Part shown: piece after piece, positions 40,606 through 63,886 of the stretch | Layout: every line of letters starts with the position of its first letter | Numbering within the stretch: the stretch's first letter is position 1 | Made by a program: the position numbers and the translations under genes | Notes under the pieces: generated by a model | The model's input: only the letters and a program-made list of their open reading frames with translations | The model's database searches: none | What the model was told of the DNA's origin: nothing | Assembly: GCF_023555375.1 (NCBI RefSeq) | Contig: NZ_JAJSEE010000002.1 | Span: 327,001-391,000, forward strand | Length of the DNA: 64,000 bases | Source: Guyparkeria hydrothermalis | GTDB lineage: Bacteria > Pseudomonadota > Gammaproteobacteria > Halothiobacillales > Halothiobacillaceae | Direction: 5' to 3'

Positions 40606-41153
40606 GAGAATTCTTGTGTAGATCGTGTCTGGACGCGGCCCCGAGAGGGGGGATACGCAAAGCGGCCATAGTATACCGATGGGCGCGTGCTCTGCACGGG
40701 CTGGACAGGTTGTCCTGCTGACTAACGGGCATTCTCGCCGCCGGTTGGCGAAATCAAATGGCGGCGATGAGTCGGGAGGTGGTTGCGAAGGCAGATCGAA
40801 GGGCGGGCCCTTGGCGTCCTGCCTCACGAGGGAAGGGCGGCCGGGGCGAAGCGACACGGACGTCGCTTCGAGGTTCGCCGCGACAGGAGGTCGCGTCGAA
40901 CCGGCCCCGAACAGCCGGCCTTCGCTCGTGAGGCCGGTAGCCTCGTCTCGAGGCTACCGGGTCCGCAGGACCAGGACGCAGGGTGTCCTTCTTTTCGCCC
41001 CTTTTCTTGGACAAGCAAGAAAAGGGGCTCGCCCGCCGGGCGCCGAGTCCGCTAAGGTTGGTAAACGTTGATCGGCGGGCGAAACAGGCACCCACGGCAC
41101 GTAGGGGTTAAAGCCCGCAGGTCATTGAATTGTTAGGTTTGATTGGGGCGGTT
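40606..41153. other. intergenic region glyQ to HNH nuclease gene
   Basis: This 548-base gap holds a likely glyQ promoter at its left end, then about 140 bases with no recognisable feature, then the inverted-repeat cluster (40822-41082), then about 70 bases before the HNH gene. No convincing coding sequence is seen. Confidence 0.6.
40822..41082. repeat. cluster of inverted repeats (multi-hairpin element)
   Basis: At least five strong inverted repeats lie side by side. An outer stem 40822-40836/40919-40933 (14 of 15 pairs) encloses two hairpins: 40847-40855/40862-40870 (9 pairs) and 40872-40884/40890-40902 (12 of 13). Next are a perfect 12-pair hairpin 40934-40945/40949-40960, a perfect 13-pair hairpin 40997-41009/41016-41028, and 41029-41038/41073-41082 (10 pairs around a 34-base loop). 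No credible protein is encoded. From memory it resembles intergenic repeats with a CTTTTCTT/AAGAAAAG hairpin common in Pseudomonas and Xanthomonas; that is unverified. Confidence 0.75.
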
Positions 41154-63561: not shown

Positions 63562-63635
63562 TGGAGCGGGTGAAGGGAATCGAACCCTCGTCTTAAGCTT
63601 GGGAAGCTTCTGCTCTACCATTGAGCTACACCCGC
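63562..63635 (-). tRNA. tRNA-Gly(CCC)
   Basis: The acceptor GCGGGTG pairs with CACCCGC; the D-arm has GTAGCTCAATGGTAGAGC; the anticodon loop TTCCCAA gives anticodon CCC (reads GGG); the T-arm holds GGTTCGATTCC. The discriminator is T and CCA is encoded (63564-63562). Closely similar to E. coli glyU. Confidence 0.96.
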
Positions 63636-63641
63636 AGGATT

Positions 63642-63850
63642 GGTCTGTCCCGCCGCCATTCCTGTGACCTTCAGCGCCCGGTTGAATCGACAGTGCCGAT
63701 TCAACCGGGCTCCCGTTGGGCGAGCCGGGCAGGGCTCATCCGCGGCGTTATGGCTCTTGGCAAGGGCGTTGCCATTACCGGCGAGCCATGCCTTGCGGCT
63801 AAGCCCTTCCCGACACGCTGAAGGCTACAGGAATAGCGGCGGGACACACC
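63642..63850 (-). ncRNA. structured RNA / inverted-repeat element before tRNA-Gly
   Basis: A long outer stem pairs 63646-63676 with 63816-63846 (28 Watson-Crick plus two G-U pairs and one mismatch on the minus strand) and extends outward to 63642/63850. It encloses a perfect 13-14 pair hairpin (63676-63689 with 63697-63710) and a long irregular arm (63731-63807). A minus-strand promoter begins right at its edge. No protein is likely. No direct target repeats flank it, so simple insertion is not shown. Confidence 0.55.
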
Positions 63851-63857
63851 GGGGGCA

Positions 63858-63886
63858 ATTATCCTGTCCGGCCGGCGCAAACGCAA
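63858..63886 (-). promoter_or_regulatory. promoter of the structured element and tRNA-Gly
   Basis: On the minus strand: TTGCGT (63886-63881), 17 bases, GATAAT (63863-63858), then GC-rich TGCCCCC. The expected start is about 63851. Confidence 0.6.

Follow-up and report, generated by a model that had tools for sequence, protein, structure and literature searches.

At the end of a long stretch of the Guyparkeria hydrothermalis genome, a block of strongly self-complementary DNA separates a tRNA gene from the promoter that should transcribe it, which raises the question of whether this block is an RNA that belongs to the tRNA or a piece of DNA that came to lie there. The stretch analysed, hereafter the window, comprises 64,000 nucleotides (contig NZ_JAJSEE010000002.1, positions 327,001 to 391,000). 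Read along the minus strand, a promoter with a 17-base spacer is followed by the structured element, seven further bases and tRNA-Gly(CCC) (Table 1). The initial annotation took the element to be a stable RNA made as the leader of this tRNA. We favor a different reading, to which we assign a probability of about 0.8: the stretch is an old non-autonomous MITE-like insertion between the promoter and tRNA-Gly(CCC), its folded single strand is under selection, and it is presumably cotranscribed with the tRNA as a removable leader.

Table 1. Features of the tRNA-Gly locus, in window coordinates.
Feature	Position	Strand	Basis and remarks
-35 box TTGCGT, tRNA-Gly promoter	63881-63886	minus	kept in 9/9 congeners with the locus read
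-10 box GATAAT, tRNA-Gly promoter	63858-63863	minus	kept in 9/9 congeners with the locus read
Element copy	63643-63849	minus	207 bp, shorter than the ~265-bp full-length family members
Outer stem, 5′ half (terminal inverted repeat)	63816-63850	minus	predicted fold; both-side change in 12/28 pairs of the A1 outer helix
Arm 1, stems variable and covarying, bulges conserved (GCAAGGC ... AACGCC)	63724-63814	minus	predicted fold, A1 and A2 alignments
Junction mini-hairpin CCC-AAC-GGG	63712-63720	minus	two C-G pairs identical in 40/40 A2 rows
Arm 2 without apex	63676-63710	minus	in full copies, the arm 1 apex recurs there in inverted form (alignment A1)
Outer stem, 3′ half (terminal inverted repeat)	63642-63675	minus	predicted fold; A1 covariation
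tRNA-Gly(CCC)	63562-63635	minus	ARAGORN and Rfam RF00005; 3′ of the element

The window copy is predicted to fold far better than its composition would lead one to expect. The minus strand of 63640-63852 reaches -154.3 kcal/mol against a mean of -87.4 for 200 shuffled sequences (z -13.1), none of which folds as well. The plus strand of the same stretch reaches -137.4 kcal/mol (z -12.3), in line with the earlier claim that the minus strand is the better folder. The architecture proposed from the letters likewise reappears in the predicted fold: the inverted repeats pair with each other as the outer stem, the proposed hairpin at 63676-63710 has 16 pairs and a loop of 3, and the proposed second arm corresponds to the long arm 1. 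The predicted minus-strand fold adds a small hairpin at the junction. The claim that no known RNA family is present also agrees with Rfam 15, which returns no family at the gathering cut-off for the window element and, for eight further loci up to E 1, nothing beyond three sub-threshold matches to microRNA precursors.

Comparison with congeners separates the promoter from the element. A tRNA-Gly match is found in 10 of 11 Guyparkeria genomes; the one in G007 is that genome's other tRNA-Gly, which leaves nine genomes with the locus read. In all nine, CTTGCGTTT-spacer-GATAAT precedes the tRNA, and phylogeny thus bears out the minus-strand promoter that had been proposed (TTGCGT, 17 bases, GATAAT). 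Its -35 box matches the consensus at only 3/6 positions, and a plain consensus scan therefore misses it. Since congeners without an insert have the same promoter, it predates the element and is the tRNA's own. In six of the nine genomes only 10-12 bases lie between the -10 box and tRNA-Gly; this distance is 222 bases in the window genome (G000) and 220 in G001, which we take as Guyparkeria sp. SCN-R1. Filled and empty sites show that the element was inserted between the promoter and tRNA-Gly(CCC). Because the site is empty in six of nine congeners and the same fold occurs at unrelated places in other genera, a mobile element landed between a pre-existing promoter and its tRNA. The conserved association of structure and tRNA-Gly implied by the initial annotation is present at only two of the nine loci, and the empty sites lead us to reject a conserved tRNA-leader RNA. 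From that earlier proposal we retain the compensated fold, the real upstream promoter and the expected transcript with the structure as its 5′ extension; we do not retain a stable RNA belonging to tRNA-Gly.

The ninth locus, in G010, has 157 bases between the -10 box and tRNA-Gly (L074). This insert is unrelated: it contains one strong short hairpin, its overall fold is ordinary (z -0.2), and the covariance model R1 described below finds no match in it. With differing inserts in the window genome and G010, the site may be a hot spot. In another congener (G002), a family copy lies about 100 bases 3′ of the same tRNA-Gly (L078:1132-1397), with no copy upstream of the tRNA.

The two filled sites also allow a view of the element after its arrival. 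The G001 copy is 86% identical to the window copy (blastn), and the gene upstream of the tRNA-Gly element is 92% identical between the two genomes. G000 and G001 have the insertion in common, yet two single-locus trees of moderate support do not place them as sisters; loss, recombination or an error in the trees may explain this. Among 87 pairs compared between the orthologous copies, 70 are unchanged, four are compensated, eight are kept by a one-sided change and five are broken. From these counts, pairing seems to be maintained even after insertion at tRNA-Gly, although template-switch repair of palindromes could give the same pattern. The same counts would fit a functional structured RNA, either a leader of tRNA-Gly or an independent ncRNA domesticated here, that is kept by selection on its RNA fold. 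The strong fold on the very strand that the tRNA promoter should transcribe fits such an RNA as well, but the locus is empty of the element in six of nine congeners and the element is mobile elsewhere.

The element belongs to a dispersed family with a full length of about 265 bp. In G005, a full-length related copy lies between a thioredoxin-like gene and map (gene names from ORF reading), and none of the nine other congeners displayed has an insert at the corresponding place. A 23-base pattern gave 41 matches at 40 loci in the species-genome collection. One gammaproteobacterial MAG accounts for 32 of them; the other nine are in a second MAG, Wenzhouxiangella, Wenzhouxiangellaceae, Thioalkalivibrio denitrificans and Guyparkeria SCN-R1. 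In the copy-rich MAG, 15 copies are cut at the end of a stretch, several at the identical base, which we liken to assemblies breaking at a repeat. To extend the search we used R1, a covariance model of 27 copies, run without decoy palindromes and with a short calibration that leaves its E-values rough. The window copy, itself in the training set, matches the whole model with 209.9 bits. At E ≤ 1e-5, R1 matches 84 of 369 gammaproteobacterial genomes, in 63 of 271 genera. The best match is at E ≤ 1e-20 in 64 of the 84 genomes; the other 20 are counted by score alone, and some of these may be other palindromes. A repeat present in 17% (strong matches) to 23% (all matches) of the Gammaproteobacteria sampled, with no Rfam family in the copies tested and no description in the literature searched, would amount to an unannotated class of intergenic DNA.

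R1 finds matches in 10 of the 11 Guyparkeria genomes. For the window genome, 150 of 990 candidates were scored and gave 97 matches, with a palindrome counting once per strand; inside the window there is no further convincing copy, the next best match having E 0.06. The further copies in this genome are divergent, and those read form a second subfamily with the end GGAAACTCTGCACGATTCGATGG. This end has 67 matches in the window genome and none in a reversed control; 28 pairs of ends close within 400 bp, and 11 ends are single. The initial annotation had held that many identical copies with target duplications would mark a MITE. Copies elsewhere do exist, but they are divergent rather than identical, and a target duplication is not readable at the window copy. 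Some copies or end pairs of the window genome are longer than the usual 266 bp, at about 338-350 bp (C1:54858-55195, C2:398632-398970, C6:117762-118111 and C5:105155-105500).

By a crude, purpose-made gene caller, 23 of 53 elements lie between tandem genes, nine between divergent and eight between convergent genes, nine at an edge and four within a long ORF. Some copies contain chance ORFs (e.g., of 93 aa in L010). One or two representatives each gave no match in plasmids, phages and E. coli genomes, and the exact pattern gave none in viral contigs; these negatives are limited, because so few representatives were used and the family has diverged past the reach of blastn between lineages.

Two alignments indicate that the fold is maintained by paired changes. 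The first, A1, derives from 35 candidates, from which the spurious L007, short or masked copies and L099 were removed to leave 28 full copies; the second copy of L065 was left unaligned, giving 27 rows, 16 of them from one MAG. The second, A2, has 40 rows of top matches only (34 rows from 31 genomes plus six A1 rows), oriented by the better R1 score. Copies cut at the end of a stored stretch were left unaligned. In A1, 28 of 84 pairs have changed on both sides with pairing kept, and 97.3% of cells are paired (97.9% in the outer helix formed by the terminal inverted repeats). None of 500 shuffles, which ignore relatedness, reaches any of five measures, and sliding the partners drops pairing to 32.5-43.8%. 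In A2, compensatory changes affect 91 of 97 pairs. The compensatory changes that the initial annotation had named as a check are thus present in relatives. From them we infer that the single-strand fold is under selection, to which mutation that repairs palindromes could contribute.

The alignments also reveal which parts of the element are kept as sequence. A2 contains 11 invariant columns, and two arm 1 pairs are identical in all 40 rows, as are the two C-G pairs of the mini-hairpin. Across the 34 rows from outside the A1 family, mean column identity rises from 0.59 (outer stem) through 0.64 and 0.65 (stems of the arms) to 0.73 and 0.78 (their unpaired positions) and 0.79 (surroundings of the junction hairpin). 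In these rows AAC and CCC..GGG stand in the expected stretches in 34/34, G[TC]GTT in 31 and GCCTTG in 29. The mean paired fraction is 0.90 (lowest row 0.54), which is weaker than in A1. For the aligned top matches, this conservation of unpaired positions points to shared ancestry and not to chance palindromes. In a usual MITE, the ends are kept and the middle decays. Here the inner loops are conserved and the terminal repeats vary between lineages, which is the reverse.

This reversal bears on the proposal that the family is an ordinary MITE, in which function resides in the terminal repeats alone, the inner hairpins arise incidentally, and compensation comes from palindrome-templated mutation together with transposases that need matched ends. 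The terminal inverted repeats, the TA or YTAR-like flanks and the dispersed copies are all as such an element would have them. So are two minimal copies in G060 (L091:911-980, 70 bp, and L091:13035-13080, 46 bp), which are nearly all end repeat, as if the arms had been deleted. We nonetheless consider this proposal doubtful, because the interior is more conserved than ends that differ between lineages, and covariation is strong in the inner arms too.

The family is built of two halves that are mirror images of each other: covariation and alignment define an outer stem of terminal inverted repeats, two arms and a junction mini-hairpin, with arm 2 an inverted version of arm 1. After reverse-complementing (39 rows), the two apices of one element have an identity of 0.70, apices of different elements 0.68 and shuffled sequences 0.57. 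The window copy lacks the apex of arm 2 in A1; the apex is wholly absent in rows L001 and L009, partly absent in L053 and L094, and present in the other 23 of 27. The arm types come in the same order from either strand. Within the A1 family, 23 of 27 rows give the better fold on the plus strand of the element (consensus energy -134 versus -90), a further point for a functional structured RNA. In the wide set, however, 25 of 40 rows favor one strand and the consensus energies are -155 versus -151, with rows oriented by model score. Neither strand is clearly favored there, and RNA therefore cannot be told from DNA as the folded strand. An excess of G-U over A-C (156 versus 24) was dropped as a strand signal, since the reverse strand on its own structure gives 128 versus 20. 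Of the 23 copies between tandem genes, 11 have the same and 12 the opposite orientation, which looks random on crude gene calls; this also speaks against a structured RNA, if weakly, as the element is mirror-symmetric. Taken with the empty sites, we regard selection on a functional RNA as quite unlikely to account for the element.

The ends of the element differ between subfamilies and may point to more than one target. Among 30 copies of the GTGTACCCC subfamily, TA flanks the element on either side in 19, CTA precedes it in 22 and TAG follows it in 17. The flanks of the own-genome subfamily were read in 22 copies (19 of 20 stretches plus L171-L173). Their flanking 4-mers agree more often than permuted flanks do, at 60 of 88 letters (p 0.0003) and exactly in 6 of 22 copies (p 0.006). 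These flanks look like YTAR, the target of IS5, and the 4-bp YTAR-like repeats of the GGAA subfamily are a likeness to the IS5 type. If CTAG-like and YTAR-like flanks both hold, different subfamilies would use different cutting enzymes. IS630 is reported to prefer TA in CTAG, according to the title of a reference in PMC2170065, and the CTA/TAG flanks of the GTGTACCCC subfamily resemble this preference of IS630/Tc1-mariner elements. Unlike in those elements, no transposase gene with the element's ends was found.

Candidate enzymes were sought in ten genomes, where no gene of the IS1380, IS630 or Y1 families was found between full copies or matching ends. IS1380 gave one clear transposase and one sub-threshold match, with ends that resemble a different repeat. 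IS630-type genes occur in two of the ten genomes and have no ends in common with the element. The own-genome subfamily has no IS-sized end pair among the ends listed. Because these non-exhaustive searches (IS1380, IS630, Y1 and end pairs) found no autonomous relative with the same ends, we call the element MITE-like rather than assign it to a named MITE family.

Y1 genes merit separate consideration, as the element could be REPIN-like, with its folded single-stranded DNA serving as substrate for copying by a RAYT, a Y1 tyrosine transposase. Such copying would suit a dyad of two hairpins and the CTAG at the foot in one subfamily. Y1 genes are also found in 71 of 84 carrier genomes versus 170 of 285 others (Fisher p 1.4e-5), a comparison confounded by phylogeny and genome size, and in G040 a truncated copy and a Y1 gene are some 0.9 kb apart, on either side of a tRNA-Arg. 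However, 13 carriers have no Y1 match, including G005 with its 17 element matches, and none of 26 Y1 loci has a full copy within 1.5 kb (two of them contain three short weak matches). We regard copying by RAYT as a long shot.

The MITE-like reading can be set against other small bacterial repeats, as these are described in two sources. Correia/NEMIS, RUP and ERIC are MITEs with 5′ TA ends, ~100-200 bp long, that fold as long stem-loops (PMC2229807). The element resembles them in being dispersed, in its terminal inverted repeats, in the TA ends of one subfamily and in a highly paired predicted transcript. Unlike them as described there, it is branched, mirror-symmetric and ~265 bp long, is found in 63 of the 271 genera sampled, and is more conserved in its inner loops than in its terminal repeats. 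The CIR repeats of Caulobacter have two arms joined by a linker, with no 5′-3′ closing stem (PMC2229807); the element shares an RNA model with two arms, but is closed by a long outer stem. REPs are 20-40 bp long (PMC3733652). With REP/REPIN and their RAYTs, the element has in common inverted hairpins, dispersal and mostly intergenic positions; it is several times longer than they are in that account, and no full copy adjoins the 26 Y1 genes examined. A literature search that included element sequence strings, with subscription papers and preprints outside its reach, found no description of the element, nor any of a fold-read mode of spread for bacterial MITEs. We take the element to be a variant of the MITE kind, and there is a real chance that its fold-first organisation is new.

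How might such a MITE-like element spread, and what would it do at tRNA-Gly? Most probably, some factor on which spread depends would recognise its folded single strand, whether single-stranded DNA, a cruciform extruded during copying or RNA, by way of the conserved bulges and loops, and a transposase supplied in trans would cut the element ends. At the window locus, the tRNA promoter would transcribe the element as a 5′ leader of tRNA-Gly of ~210 nt, which RNase P, perhaps after RNase III, may remove from the tRNA. Locally, this makes for a tRNA gene with a structured insert of ~210 bases between its promoter and its 5′ end in two species. It is tempting to go further. Tentatively, and at somewhat less than even odds, the family may be a class-wide mobile group whose defining feature is neither its ends nor a transposase but a mirror-symmetric folded core in which the loops are conserved. 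Its lineages would carry this core behind unrelated terminal repeats, and the core would be a portable module whose folded single strand (single-stranded DNA or RNA) is read by a host or helper factor. As the inner fold is conserved and the ends are not, the family lends itself to testing directly whether small bacterial elements spread by recognition of folded single strands or of duplex ends.

Two further features came to light during these searches. The MAG G057 contains a second dispersed repeat, with ends CTAGCCCGCATTATTCATGA, near L031:5699-5883, L034:7151-7335, L048:3669-3852 and other places. It abuts the element at some of them (L048, L037 and L089), and an IS1380-type transposase gene in G061 (L137) has flanks similar to the end of this second repeat. 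The window itself encodes, on the plus strand at 40812-40943, a TwoAYGGAY RNA (RF01731; 56.7 bits against a cut-off of 43).
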